The notes beneath the pieces are model-generated. The model was not told the DNA's origin. It saw only the letters and a list, made by a program, of their open reading frames with translations, and did no database searches. Positions 25,720 to 41,305 of a stretch of 41,305 nucleotides of DNA are shown here, piece by piece. Source of the stretch: Acidimicrobiia bacterium (GTDB lineage Bacteria; Actinomycetota; Acidimicrobiia; Acidimicrobiales; AC-14). The translations under genes and the position numbers were made by a program. How positions within the stretch are numbered: the first letter of the stretch is position 1; the number at the start of each line of letters is the position of its first letter. The stretch is from the NCBI GenBank assembly GCA_023264995.1, contig JAHFUR010000038.1:1-41305 (forward strand), written 5' to 3'.

Positions 25720-25803
25720 AAGGATCGCGTCGACTGTACCCGTTCCGCCTCGCCGGTACGACTGTGAGGACGCAGAGGCGACGCCGGCCGGGCGGTCGTG
25801 CAG

Positions 25804-25876
25804 TGGTCGGGACCGGTGTCGATCCGGTGACCTCGCGCTTTTCAGGCGCGCGCTCTACCAACTGAGCTACCCGACC
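25804..25876 (-). tRNA. tRNA-Phe (anticodon GAA)
   Basis: The minus strand folds as a full cloverleaf: 7-bp acceptor GGTCGGG/CCCGACC, D arm with 'AGCTCAGTTGGTAGAGC', anticodon stem CGCGC/GCGCG around loop CTGAAAA (anticodon GAA), and T arm with 'TCGACAC'. Discriminator A; CCA is not encoded. Confidence 0.96.
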
Positions 25877-25912
25877 AGGTTGTTGCGAACTACGTAGACG
25901 ACCGAACTACCG

Positions 25913-25987
25913 CGGTCCTGACGAGATTTGAACTCGCGACCTCCGCCTTGACAGGGCGGCGTGCACTCCAAGCTGCACCACAGGACC
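25913..25987 (-). tRNA. tRNA-Asp (anticodon GTC)
   Basis: Full cloverleaf on the minus strand, 75 bases: acceptor GGTCCTG/CAGGACC, anticodon stem CCGCC/GGCGG around loop CTGTCAA (anticodon GTC), and T arm GCGAG-TTCAAAT-CTCGT. Discriminator G, the aspartate identity base; no encoded CCA. It is 36 bases upstream of tRNA-Phe on the same strand, probably one transcript. Confidence 0.96.
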
Positions 25988-36844: not shown

Positions 36845-37420
36845 TTAGGGCTGGGCGACCTCGGCGCGCCGGTCATCCGCCGCGTCCGGTCTGCCTGGCC
36901 CCGGGTGCTCGGTGAGCTCGATCTCGACCCGGGCCCCGTCTTCGCGGAAGAACCGGACCACGGCCCGGCTGGCAGCCCACAGGTGGGCCAACCGAGGGGC
37001 GACGTGGTGCGGGTGCCCGGTGCCGGACTCCAACCCGACGTCGAGGCTCACCAAGCGGCTGTTGTCGGGGCCGGTGGGGTCGAGCAGCTCACCGATGGTC
37101 ACGCCGAGGGTGACCGCCAACCCGAACAGCTCGTCGATCGTGACGTTCCGGGTCCGCCCTTCGACCGCGCTCACGGTCGAACGGCCCCAGCCGTGGCTCA
37201 GGTCGTTCATGCGGGCCGCTAGCTGGTCCTGGGTCATCAGGCGGAGCATGCGGTAGGCCCGCAGGTTCTCGGCCAAGGCATCGGAGGGGCGGACGGGGCC
37301 GACGAGCGGGCCGCCGGCGTCCTTCACGTACGGGCCCCGGCTTGTCGGCCGGCGGGTCGAAACTTCGATACGGGCATTCGCCTGCGAGGCAGTCGTCGTG
37401 TGAGATCCGGGGCCGTCCAC
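36845..37420 (-). CDS. XRE-family helix-turn-helix regulator
   Basis: 191 residues. The HTH domain spans about 47-113: 'LAENLRAYRMLRLMTQDQLAARM', 'GRSTVSAVEGRTRNVTIDEL' and 'LAVTLGVTIGELL', an XRE/Cro fold. The N-terminal 45 residues are polar and disordered. The C-terminus contains 'VRFFREDGARVEIELTEH', a possible ligand-binding or dimerising strand pair. GTG at 37420 has AGGAGG 13 bases upstream, rather far; an internal start near 37325 (GTG) would remove only the disordered tail. It is divergent from the triple-repeat secreted gene across a 241-base gap that holds two palindromes. Confidence 0.88.
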   Translation of the reverse strand: MDGPGSHTTTASQANARIEVSTRRPTSRGPYVKDAGGPLVGPVRPSDALAENLRAYRMLRLMTQDQLAARMNDLSHGWGRSTVSAVEGRTRNVTIDELFGLAVTLGVTIGELLDPTGPDNSRLVSLDVGLESGTGHPHHVAPRLAHLWAASRAVVRFFREDGARVEIELTEHPGPGRPDAADDRRAEVAQP

Positions 37421-37463
37421 GTTTCGAAAAGGTCCTCCTGCTACGGGTCACGTTGCTGTGGTC

Positions 37464-37477
37464 GCCCAGCACTGGGC
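37464..37477. promoter_or_regulatory. Palindrome in the XRE/secreted-protein divergent region, site 1
   Basis: GCCCAG-CA-CTGGGC, perfect 6-bp arms with a 2-base centre, 43 bases from the XRE start. It suits a homodimeric regulator such as the adjacent XRE protein; binding is inferred. Confidence 0.4.
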
Positions 37478-37546
37478 TTCCAGTCAGGTTCACCCCCGCC
37501 GCAAGACGGTGACAGGCCGTCGGGCAGCAGGAGTGTATCGACATCA

Positions 37547-37561
37547 CCGATCCCGGATCGG
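37547..37561. promoter_or_regulatory. Palindrome in the XRE/secreted-protein divergent region, site 2
   Basis: CCGATCC-C-GGATCGG, perfect 7-bp arms around one base, about 100 bases before the secreted-protein ATG. It shares no clear half-site with site 1, so two different regulators, or chance in GC-rich DNA, are also possible. Confidence 0.4.
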
Positions 37562-37661
37562 CATTTCACTCGTTCTTCCTTCGGTCCTGGGTGTTTTCAT
37601 CGTCTTTTCATCTGCGCGGGCTACAACACCCCGAGAGCCAGGGCTCGACAAGGAGAGACGC

Positions 37662-39221
37662 ATGACGAAACGCAACGTGTTCACCGCGTTGGCCGCGGCA
37701 GCGATGGTGCTGGGGCTGCTCGGCACGGCCGGGCCCTCGGGGGCCCAGGTCACCCCGGAGGTGGCCTTCACCTTCACCCCCACCTCGGGGCCGGCAGGGA
37801 CCAAGATCGCCTTCTCGGGCACCGGCTGCCCCCATGACGCGGCCAAGACCCTCGACGGGCTGGTGTTCCTGACCCAGGGCAGCGCCAACCCCATCGGCTC
37901 CACCGAGTTCGTCTCCAACGCCTCGGGCCAGTTCAGCCCGCTGCTGGACACCACCGGGCTGGCGCCGGGCCAGTACACGACCTTCGCCGTGTGCGCCAAC
38001 ACCTCCAAGGGCGGCCCGGGCAGCCCCTTCACCGTCACCGTGCCCGTCATCCCCGGCTCGAGCTACTTCCCCCTCAGCCCGGCCCGCGTCCTCGACACCC
38101 GCAACGGCACCGGCACCGGCGGGGCGGTCAACCCCCTGGGCTCGGGCGGGTCCATCGACGTCAAGGTCATCGACGTGGGCGGGGTCCCCGCCGGCGGGGT
38201 CACCGCCGTGGCCCTCAACGTGGTGGCCACCGACGCCCAGGGCCCGCCCAGCTACCTGACGGTGTGGCCCACCGGCGGGGTGCGGCCCCTGGCCTCGAAC
38301 CTGAACTTCGTGCCCGGGGTCTCGGTGCCCAACCTGGTCATCGCCCGGGTCGGCACCGACGGCAAGGTCTCCATCTACAACAACCTGGGCACGGTCAACG
38401 TGGCCGCCGACGTGCAGGGCTACTTCGCCGGTGACACCACCGGGTCCACCTACGTCCCCCTGTCGCCGGCCCGGGTGCTCGACACCCGCAACGGCACCGG
38501 CGGCACCTCCACGCCGGTCGGGCCGGGCGGGACCATCGAGCTCAAGGTCACCGACGCCGGCGGGGTGCCCGCCGCCGGCGGCAGCGCCGTGGCCCTCAAC
38601 GTCACCGCCACCAACGTGAGCGGGGCCGAGAGCTACCTCACGGTGTGGCCCTCGGGGTCGTCGCGCCCGGTGGCGTCGAACCTGAACTTCATCGGGGGCC
38701 AGACCGTGCCCAACCTGGTCATCGCCCGGGTGGGCGACGGGGGCAAGGTGTCGATCTTCAACAACCTGGGCAACGTCGACGTGGTGGCCGACACCCAGGG
38801 CTACTTCGCCGCCCCCGTGGCGGTGGGCAACCCCCTGCCCGGCTCGGTGTACTTCCCGGCCTCGCCGGCGCGCATCCTCGACACCCGTGACGGCACCGGG
38901 GTGCCGGGCGGGGCCATGGGCCAGCTGGGCACGGCCGGCGTCATCGACGTGCAGGTCACCGGGGCCGGCGGGGTGCCGGCCAACGCCACCGCCGTGGCCC
39001 TCAACGTCACCGCCGCGGACTCCCCCGGCCCCGACAGCTACCTCACCGTCTACCCCACCGGCACCACCCGGCCCCTGGCCTCGAACCTCAACTTCGTGGC
39101 CGGCCAGACCGTGCCCAACCTGGTCATCGCCCGCATCGGCGCCGGCGGCAAGGTGACCATCTACAACAACCTCGGCTCCACCGTGGTGGTGGCCGACGTG
39201 CAGGGCTGGTTCACCAACTGA
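37662..39221 (+). CDS. Secreted protein with an Ig-like domain and three tandem 'SPAR-LDTR' repeats
   Basis: 519 residues. A signal peptide ('MTKRNVFTALAAAAMVLGLL') is followed by an Ig-like domain from about 30 to 125, with 'FTPTSGPAGTKIAFSGTGC'. Three repeats of about 130 residues begin near 136, 266 and 398. Each carries 'FP-SPAR-LDTR-GTG', 'AVALNV-A', 'SYLTV-P-G--RP-ASNLNF', 'VPNLVIARVG--GKV-I-NNLG' and 'ADVQGYF'. Such repeats recur in extracellular proteins of Acidimicrobiia and relatives; their function is not established. ATG at 37662 has AGGAGAG at a good distance. The DNA repeats are near identical over short stretches, so repeat number may change by recombination. A strong terminator follows. 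Confidence 0.92.
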   Translation: MTKRNVFTALAAAAMVLGLLGTAGPSGAQVTPEVAFTFTPTSGPAGTKIAFSGTGCPHDAAKTLDGLVFLTQGSANPIGSTEFVSNASGQFSPLLDTTGLAPGQYTTFAVCANTSKGGPGSPFTVTVPVIPGSSYFPLSPARVLDTRNGTGTGGAVNPLGSGGSIDVKVIDVGGVPAGGVTAVALNVVATDAQGPPSYLTVWPTGGVRPLASNLNFVPGVSVPNLVIARVGTDGKVSIYNNLGTVNVAADVQGYFAGDTTGSTYVPLSPARVLDTRNGTGGTSTPVGPGGTIELKVTDAGGVPAAGGSAVALNVTATNVSGAESYLTVWPSGSSRPVASNLNFIGGQTVPNLVIARVGDGGKVSIFNNLGNVDVVADTQGYFAAPVAVGNPLPGSVYFPASPARILDTRDGTGVPGGAMGQLGTAGVIDVQVTGAGGVPANATAVALNVTAADSPGPDSYLTVYPTGTTRPLASNLNFVAGQTVPNLVIARIGAGGKVTIYNNLGSTVVVADVQGWFTN

Positions 39222-39227
39222 CGCGGT

Positions 39228-39267
39228 GAGGGTTGGGTGCCCGGGCCGTCCCGGGCACCCAACCCTC
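39228..39267. terminator. Perfect 18-bp hairpin terminator between convergent genes
   Basis: Arms 39228-39245 and 39250-39267 are perfectly complementary, with loop CCGT. It is 6 bases beyond the secreted-protein stop and 41 bases beyond the PfpI-type gene's stop, so it can serve both strands. Confidence 0.9.
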
Positions 39268-39308
39268 GGCCGGTTCCAGGCCGGCGCGCTCCCCGGTCTT
39301 GGCCGGCC

Positions 39309-40436
39309 CTAGAACTTGGGCCGCTTCACCTCTTCGGCCGTCGGCTCGTGGCCGCGGCCGTCACCGTCGATCACGAACTGCCCCGGCAACTGACCATTCC
39401 CATGGAGCTGGGCCAGGGTCAGCAGCGCGGCGGGGTACCCGTCCGGGGTAGTGCGGGCGCTGATGAAGGGGCCATCGGCGACGGCCATGTACGGCGTGCC
39501 GTCCTTGGACAGGAAGCCGCCGGCGGGCCCCGTGTACTGCTTGATCATCTGCTCGAGGGTGACCACGGCCGAGCCGTAGTTCGGCCCGTACTGGCCCTCG
39601 GCTATCACGTCGGCGGTGAAGTCGGTGTAGTCGTCCTGCTCGGAGTGACCGGTGACCAGCCGGCCCGAGACGAGCGGCACATCCGTCTCGGGATCGGTGG
39701 CCTGGATCAGCACGGCGACCCCGTAACAGATCGCGGCAACCGGACGCTTCAGCTCGGTCATGACCTGGATCAGCGGGCGGACCGAGGTGTTCCCCCCGAG
39801 GTCCATGTACGCGCCGGCGCCGCCGACGATGAACACGGCGGCGTACTCGGTGACTTCCCGCAGGCCTTCGGCCAGCTTCTGGCGGAACGCCTCGCGCGAC
39901 TCCTCCCCGTCGTGCGGACGGGGCGTGGGCGGCAGCCACTCACCGAGGCTCCGGGGGGCGTTCAGGCGCCGGCCATCCTCGCTGGTGCCATCGTTGTACA
40001 GCTCACCGAGGCCTGCCTCGGCGGCGGAGACCTGCGTGGCGTTCCAGGCTTGGTCCTTGAAGGTCGTGTCCACGCTCACCGGGTAGACGAACGGACGGTT
40101 GCCGCGCGGGGTGACGTAGTCAACCTCGTAGCCGGCGGCCCGGAACACCCGGTCGGGCAGGGTCAGCTCGGAGCTCCAGTACCCGTGCTCGGGGATGACC
40201 GCCAGGATCTTGCCCGGTGCCGACGGGATGTCCACCGTCACGCCGGTGAACCGTTCGATCTCGCTGACGAGGAACGCCATGTCGAACGTGCCGTCGACCA
40301 TCCGCTGGGCGATCTCCCCCACCGGAGCGTTCTCCGTGAACTGCATCTTGGGGAAGGCCACCGCCCGGGCATGGCTCTCGGCGATCCGCTCGGCCACCTC
40401 GGCCGGGGTGCCCTGAAGTTCGGGTGCCTGTTCCAT
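39309..40436 (-). CDS. DJ-1/PfpI superfamily protein
   Basis: 375 residues, of which about the last 300 form a class I glutamine-amidotransferase-like domain. 'ILAVIPEHGYWSSEL' and 'FRAAGYEVDYVTPRG' open it, and the nucleophile elbow 'AAICYGVAVL' has Cys237. 'VSGRLVTGHSEQDDY' has a candidate histidine. This pattern fits the HchA/Hsp31-like branch (chaperone, glyoxalase or deglycase activity reported). An extra N-terminal 75 residues of helical type ('TPAEVAERIAESHARAV') precede the domain. ATG at 40436 has GAGGAGG five bases upstream. It is the last chromosomal gene before the tRNA-Glu scar. Confidence 0.88.
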   Translation of the reverse strand: MEQAPELQGTPAEVAERIAESHARAVAFPKMQFTENAPVGEIAQRMVDGTFDMAFLVSEIERFTGVTVDIPSAPGKILAVIPEHGYWSSELTLPDRVFRAAGYEVDYVTPRGNRPFVYPVSVDTTFKDQAWNATQVSAAEAGLGELYNDGTSEDGRRLNAPRSLGEWLPPTPRPHDGEESREAFRQKLAEGLREVTEYAAVFIVGGAGAYMDLGGNTSVRPLIQVMTELKRPVAAICYGVAVLIQATDPETDVPLVSGRLVTGHSEQDDYTDFTADVIAEGQYGPNYGSAVVTLEQMIKQYTGPAGGFLSKDGTPYMAVADGPFISARTTPDGYPAALLTLAQLHGNGQLPGQFVIDGDGRGHEPTAEEVKRPKF

Positions 40437-40623
40437 CGCGTCCTCCTCGAGGGTTTCCACGGCGAGCCTACGAACCCCACCACCGCGGGCCGGAGCTACC
40501 TGGTCCTGGGTGGTGCCCGAGAGGCCGCCGGGTTCCCGACGATCGTAGAACAGGATCCGCTGTTCGATCAGCTCCTCCGGGAGCATCGAAGACCGGGGCC
40601 CGTCTGCATTGAGGTCTTGCCGG

Positions 40624-40664
40624 CGCCCCCAACGGGATTCGAACCCGTGCTGCCGCCTTGAAAG
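40624..40664 (-). other. 3' half of a tRNA-Glu(TTC) gene: attachment-site scar of an integrated element
   Basis: On the minus strand the 41 bases read as the 3' half of a tRNA: anticodon loop CTTTCAA (anticodon TTC), stem strand GGCGG, variable CAGC, a complete T arm (ACGGG-TTCGAAT-CCCGT), acceptor 3' strand TGGGGGC and discriminator G. The 5' strand of the anticodon stem should follow, but the sequence departs at 40665, and no D arm or acceptor 5' strand exists. A fragment ending exactly at the anticodon loop is the classic duplicated att core left by tyrosine integrases. Host DNA lies to the left and the element to the right. Confidence 0.85.
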
Positions 40665-41305
40665 CCTGAGACAGGCAATATCACCACGAACCACCTCGTG
40701 CGTTTGTGCAGGTCAAACGGGGTAAGCATATCCGCTGCGTCCGCCCCGTCCGCCTAGTATTGCCGAGTTGAGTGGCAAATGGAGTGGCAACATTCACAAT
40801 CCACCGAAGTCGCCCCGGCCCCATTCGGCGTCGCCCCGCCGTTCATTGTAGGTCCGTGGGCGACGGCCGGCGCTGCGACGCTTCAGCGCGTGCGCTGTCC
40901 CGCCGTCCTGCTGGTGCCCCTCGACTGCGCTCACATCGGCACCGGGGCCGGCAGTCGCCCGGCGAGAGATGATTCGCAGCCGCCCCTGGCAGCGGCCGCC
41001 ACGCCCGATCCGAGCGCGCGCTCGTCGTATGCGCCAGTAGGGAAGCCACAACAGGATGGTTCCGACGAATCGGCGAGGTCCGGATCGTCCTGGGCGCCCG
41101 GGGACGGTCAAGCATTATGGGGCGCCAGACTGCCGCACGGACGTTCGATTGCGAGCCCCAGGGTTCGTAAGCGGCACCTGTCACCGACCGGCACACTGTG
41201 GCTACCCCAAGACGGTCGGCGTGGCGGGTTCTGGGACGCGCGGTATGCGCGCCTGGGCCAGAGGTACCCGACCTTTCGCGATACGATATTGTGACGTGGA
41301 GATCT
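40665..41305. other. End of the putative integrated element; no supported gene
   Basis: 641 bases. The long plus-strand reading 40779-41294 (171 codons) and minus-strand readings have no recognisable domain and look like GC-driven open frames. A palindrome GCCTG-AGA-CAGGC (40664-40676) sits at the junction, and CACGA/TCGTG arms lie at 40685-40700. AT-richer bases 41275-41300 could be a promoter for a gene beyond the edge. These suit the regulatory end of an element rather than coding DNA. Confidence 0.5.
40770..40790 (+). repeat. Two direct repeats GAGTGGCAA, candidate integrase arm sites
   Basis: GAGTGGCAA occurs at 40770-40778 and again at 40782-40790, a 12-base period. Short direct repeats about 100 bases inside an att core are typical binding sites for the arm domain of tyrosine integrases. 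Function is inferred. Confidence 0.5.

Follow-up and report, generated by a model that had tools for sequence, protein, structure and literature searches.

A displaced 3' half of tRNA-Glu very probably marks one end of a tyrosine-integrase element in an Acidimicrobiia genome

The tRNA-Glu(TTC) fragment near the right edge of the analysed window (the whole stretch of 41,305 nucleotides, contig C74 of genome G000) is very probably an attR site, i.e. the displaced 3' half left by an element with a tyrosine integrase that inserted at the anticodon loop of a tRNA-Glu(TTC) gene. The same genome holds, on a second contig (C55), an intact tRNA gene sharing a 45-bp core with the fragment, an integrase beside it and a pair of repeats that matches a pair in the window, and relatives carry tRNA-Glu sites free of the element. 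Since scar, matching tRNA and integrase all occur in one genome, C55 and C74 can be ordered and the element is bounded to the base at both ends; what had been a puzzle at a contig edge is thereby settled. Furthermore, comparison with relatives reveals a recurrent insertion site in a little-studied group of actinobacteria. Features are listed in Table 1.

Table 1. Features of the window and of the matching contig C55 (coordinates are window positions unless a contig is named)
Feature	Coordinates	Strand	Basis or remark
attR core (very probable): 3' half of tRNA-Glu(TTC)	40620..40664	-	45/45 identity with intact C55 gene
Right end of integrated element (641 bp within the window, without a convincing gene)	40665..41305		chromosome lies on the other side of the fragment
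Putative arm-type integrase site, copy 1 (TTGCCACTC)	40782..40790	-	tandem pair; same motif pair before C55 integrase
Putative arm-type integrase site, copy 2 (TTGCCACTC)	40770..40778	-	tandem pair
Start of presumed repeat X	41185..41305		these final 121 bp also form, without a difference, the end of contig C10
Stretch between attR and genus-conserved flank, 3.3 kb	37342..40619		not at this place in G001 or G002
DJ-1/PfpI-family gene outside attR	39309..40439	-	Pfam DJ-1_PfpI 1.5e-10
Repeat protein, 519 aa	37662..39221	+	both ends are ends of contigs C62 and C37; other copy seen by its ends only
HTH_3 regulator, first conserved gene of chromosomal flank	36845..37327	-	comparison with relatives
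tRNA-Asp(GTC), adjoins tRNA-Glu in G003 and G004	25912..25987	-	ARAGORN
tRNA-Phe(GAA), next in the G003/G004 cluster	25803..25876	-	ARAGORN
Complete tRNA-Glu(TTC)	C55:39106-39180	+	ARAGORN

Base-by-base extension showed that the identical block comprises 45 bp, window positions 40620-40664 (minus strand) being equal to C55:39138-39182. Counted by hand, it starts with the first base of the anticodon loop and ends 4 bp beyond the discriminator base, which is 2 bp beyond the gene end given by ARAGORN. The initial annotation, which had placed a 3' half of tRNA-Glu(TTC) at 40624-40664 on the minus strand with its cut at the anticodon loop, was therefore right about the nature of the fragment and about the cut, but the shared block measures 45 bp and not 41. 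A 41-base query at 40623-40663, one base away from the interval initially annotated, searched with up to 3 mismatches in the genome's own assembly of 81 contigs and 3,815,911 bases, gave two matches, both exact, at C74:40623-40663 (minus) and C55:39139-39179 (plus); the same pattern read backwards gave none in that assembly. The next-best tRNA similarity to the fragment, 89% over 38 bp, is to a tRNA-Glu(CTC) gene on C21, in a genome with 46 tRNA matches overall. A longer match between the two sites, 82% over 83 bp, turned out to be the identical 45-bp block plus weak similarity beyond it. The 5' half is missing from the window, as had been claimed: ARAGORN finds only tRNA-Phe and tRNA-Asp there, and an Rfam scan of 40000-41305 up to E = 1 returned no match, which is expected for half a tRNA. 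A search for a further, decayed attR, in which the 45-bp block was allowed up to 14 mismatches, covered the window and the stretches fetched from the relatives G001, G002 and G006 and gave no copies beyond those described here.

The complete tRNA-Glu(TTC) carrying this 3' block, which the initial annotation had proposed to look for to the right on the same contig, is indeed present in the genome, but on C55, which is not joined to C74. As anticipated, a tyrosine integrase gene lies directly downstream in the same orientation, with its start 101 bp past the tRNA's 3' end. It encodes 400 residues, matches Pfam Phage_integrase (2e-25) and the PHROG integrase family (1.5e-70), and its translation displays arginine, HxxR, histidine and tyrosine residues, which we take to be the pattern expected of an active enzyme. 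The integrase is followed by an HTH_17 gene with a match to a PHROG excisionase/regulator family (5.1e-7), by a TrwC/MobF relaxase gene (5.4e-70) and then by cargo: an MFS transporter, a metallo-beta-lactamase/rhodanese protein, two methyltransferases, an ArsR-type HTH/rhodanese protein, a DsrE-like protein, a TauE-type exporter and a LysR regulator. The part of this cargo with the metallo-beta-lactamase/rhodanese, ArsR/rhodanese, DsrE-like, TauE and LysR genes spans L011:12247-19498, and TauE/LysR-like DNA also adjoins tRNA-Phe in G003 (L054:4039-5695). Three of the 14 predicted genes past the C55 tRNA have no Pfam family, and Pfam scans of these 14, which represent an incomplete element, found no secretion-system, coupling, VirB4-like ATPase or FtsK/SpoIIIE genes. 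Compared with phages, the integrase matches 1941 records, all below 60% identity and, among the matches listed, at about 30%; the relaxase matches at least 5000 plasmid records, among the matches listed all below 60% identity, with 28.5-31% for those shown. In G+C content, the C55 part (0.72) is like the chromosome (0.72-0.73), and the 520 bp at the right end have 0.67. The genome also encodes a second integrase, 39% identical to the first (C38:31970-33097) and preceded on its own strand by a tRNA (C38:33842) at a distance of about 0.7 kb.

Both ends of the element carry paired repeats. On C55, the tandem pair TTTGCCAATCT TTTGCCAATCC lies between tRNA and integrase, 56 bp inside the left core; in the window, TTGCCACTC..TTGCCACTC occupies 40770-40790, 105 bp inside the right core, and the two pairs have the same orientation within the element. 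This match to the repeats at the integrase end fits the assertion that the element extends to the right from 40665. Within 145,109 bases of DNA from this genome, the 9-bp motif TTGCCA[AC]TC is confined to these two pairs, the left and right motifs differing by one base (CAATC, CACTC). The motif pair appeared in none of 100 shuffles of the window and none of 200 shuffles of L011, and for the single motif, 0.23 occurrences are expected in the window against two found; for both figures the pattern had been picked after the sequence was seen. Across 969,601 bases, a sample with much overlap, the pair was met 16 times, either at its own two places or at the same spot before homologous integrases, in genomes G006, G038 and G074. 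Judging from sequence, we regard these pairs as putative arm-type integrase sites.

The 641 bp that represent the right end in the window contain mechanical open reading frames of up to 171 aa, none of which is picked by a codon-score gene finder. C55, at its own end, has 182 bp (99% identical) in common with the start of contig C50, and in G001 (C30) and G002 (C201), the C10-end sequence and C50 from about 3.7 kb on lie 1-2 kb apart on one contig. On the simplest reading, a repeat X is present twice, as C10-X-C50 and as C74-X-C55, oriented as the att sites require. At the C10/C50 place, G001 and G002 lack not only X but also about 3.7 kb at the start of C50, so X may be more than one simple repeat or may be part of something larger. 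X is absent from the assembly, in which no contig spans C55 to C74, and we infer that it provides the physical link between them; the orientation of the 3' fragment fits a path C55 - X - C74 reversed through these unjoined contigs. The element would then consist of 16,700 bp on C55, X and the 641 bp in the window, i.e. at least about 17.3 kb. A 46-residue peptide from the C55 end (X) was found in its own genome only among 298, with none in the 297 others, and a 40-residue peptide from that end matched plasmids only with E about 8-10. A 30-base pattern from the C74 end had no exact match in viral contigs, and local alignments of the two contig ends for the identity of X scored 11 to 21, without a control. 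Just inside the right end, window positions 41103-41195 are 79% similar to C7:92036-92128.

The gene upstream of tRNA-Glu, present in this genome and in 6 of 9 other family genomes searched, allowed the locus to be compared. Empty sites, which had been named as a check, occur in three relatives. In G003 and G004, the tRNA genes for Glu, Asp and Phe stand next to one another, Glu being separated from Asp by 14 and 15 bp, and the element is absent. In G002, which belongs to the same genus, similarity to the window flank (37323, in the HTH gene) starts 271 bp after tRNA-Glu, the remainder of the flank is collinear with gaps up to tRNA-Asp, and no integrase match was obtained at E<=1e-60; the direct flank of attR differs from that of G002. 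Other genomes retain traces of integration. G001, also of the same genus, has a truncated integrase (89% identical DNA) after tRNA-Glu and the HTH gene 26.7 kb further, with no 3' fragment between the two. Here (L053:16732-16733, also L110) tRNA-Glu is fused to the middle of the integrase gene, which also has a stop codon; this is a decayed element that has lost its left end. In G006, an integrase follows tRNA-Glu and tRNA-Asp is reached after about 15 kb, with no 3' fragment in the stretch; a large gene in this interval, considered as a possible relaxase, proved to encode a UvrD helicase. In G005, an integrase is followed by a second 3' half with an unrelated 5' side and, after that, by integrase remains. 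ARAGORN calls this second half a tRNA-Glu (L056:9509-9577), with a 5' half unrelated to the intact gene, and it is probably an attachment-site scar in a tandem array. As integrases or their remains thus stand at tRNA-Glu in this genome and in G001, G006 and G005, the interval has been hit more than once.

An older insertion or a later change might account for the 3.3 kb that separate attR from the conserved flank. The DJ-1/PfpI gene in this stretch has relatives with 82% protein identity in G001 and G005; in both genomes they lie on a contig different from the one with the tRNA-Glu locus, a different place being certain only for G001. The neighbouring repeat-protein gene (37632-39231) is either the product of a recent duplication, the size of one gene, next to attR or an artefact of assembly. 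Contig C62 ends in 124 bp (99%) and C37 in 121 bp (100%) of this gene, and because it spans an assembly junction, a false join at 37662-39221 is conceivable, by which the right 2 kb of C74, the fragment included, would come from elsewhere in the chromosome. We consider such a misjoin quite improbable. C37-like and C62-like sequences are the conserved surroundings of the gene in both G001 and G002, which leaves the pairing seen on C74 for a second copy; moreover, the fragment lies correctly oriented in just that interval, between tRNA-Glu and tRNA-Asp, in which the integration model predicts it.

It is likewise unlikely, if somewhat less so, that the fragment is the attR of a different, related element, arranged in tandem at tRNA-Glu, and not of the one with the C55 integrase. 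As the left and right motifs are one base apart, the right end could belong to such a sibling, and both the G005 locus, where two 3' halves and integrase pieces resemble a tandem array, and the 39% identical integrase on C38 lend this some weight. Yet the assembly contains the 3' half no more than twice at up to 3 mismatches, hence a single attL/attR pair is visible, and the shared contig ends indicate a direct link of C55 to C74. Hardly credible, finally, is an ordinary duplication or a decay remnant of the tRNA-Glu gene in which no integrase took part. tRNA genes are conserved and partial identity is expected of any copy, but the cut coincides precisely with the anticodon loop, the identical block continues beyond the 3' end, and the strand agrees with that of tRNA-Asp and tRNA-Phe; an integrase and the matching pairs of repeats are also present. 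Altogether, the claim that a tRNA-integrated element ends in the window is supported, within limits set by the unjoined contigs and by the 3.3 kb (37342-40619) that are unlike the flank in G001 and G002.

For integration at tRNA-Glu by the element on C55, we envisage the following course. The element would have carried its own copy of the tRNA-Glu 3' half, so that recombination would have rebuilt the full tRNA-Glu at the left end (attL, on C55) and moved the old 3' half to the right end, in the window. The resulting path would run from tRNA-Glu through integrase, excisionase-like HTH gene, MobF relaxase and cargo on C55 into X, then along the window from 41305 to 40665, across attR and into the chromosome with tRNA-Asp and tRNA-Phe. 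The element may be able to excise and, having a relaxase and no secretion system in the part seen, may transfer with help from another conjugative element; it is probably mobilizable.

Homologues of the integrase are widespread, matches at E<=1e-60 being found in 66 of the 298 genomes of the order, this one included. We surveyed tRNAs at the best 30 integrase loci, one per genome, a check that leaves the 73% identical integrase of G074 outside. A tRNA on the same strand lies directly upstream at 25 of these 30 loci, with gaps of -5 to 180 bp, the -5 case being the truncated integrase of G001; five have no upstream tRNA, and in one of them (L123) the contig stops 168 bp upstream. The seven closest of these 30 integrases, this one included, all adjoin tRNA-Glu (six TTC and one CTC), and the other 18 linked tRNAs are Arg (11), Lys (2), Val (2), Met (1), Gly (1) and Glu (1). 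We tentatively raise the possibility of a family of mobilizable elements in a lineage of Acidimicrobiia, with a tRNA-Glu-specific integrase clade, a single MobF relaxase and TTGCCA[AC]TC arm sites in pairs. Members of this integrase family may have entered one tRNA-Glu/Asp/Phe interval again and again, accreting and decaying there, in the present case with cargo that looks sulfur-related (rhodanese, DsrE-like, TauE).

Among known classes, integrative mobilizable elements combine integrase, excisionase-like gene, relaxase and cargo and have no mating channel of their own. The present element likewise has an integrase, an excisionase-like gene, a relaxase and cargo, and resembles a mobilizable element; as part of it is unsequenced, a transfer apparatus may merely lie outside the portion seen. 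The islands catalogued by Islander are defined by an intact tRNA, a displaced fragment and an integrase, and 2083 of 3919 of them fall into the anticodon crossover class (PMC4383910). Our element shares with the islands as described there the intact tRNA at one end, the 3' fragment at the other, the tyrosine integrase inside and the anticodon-centred crossover, but, unlike them, has its ends on two contigs, so that its length and the criterion of a common replicon are left incomplete (PMC4383910). Actinobacterial AICEs were, by the first criteria of a survey that later widened them, confined to Actinomycetales with none in Acidimicrobidae (PMC3218068). With the AICEs portrayed there, for which tandem arrays are reported, the element has in common a tyrosine integrase beside the 3' end of a tRNA, yet in the part seen it has a MobF relaxase instead of an FtsK/SpoIIIE translocase (PMC3218068). 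In summary, the element is a further example of an already known kind of tRNA-integrated element, and the mechanism is a textbook one.
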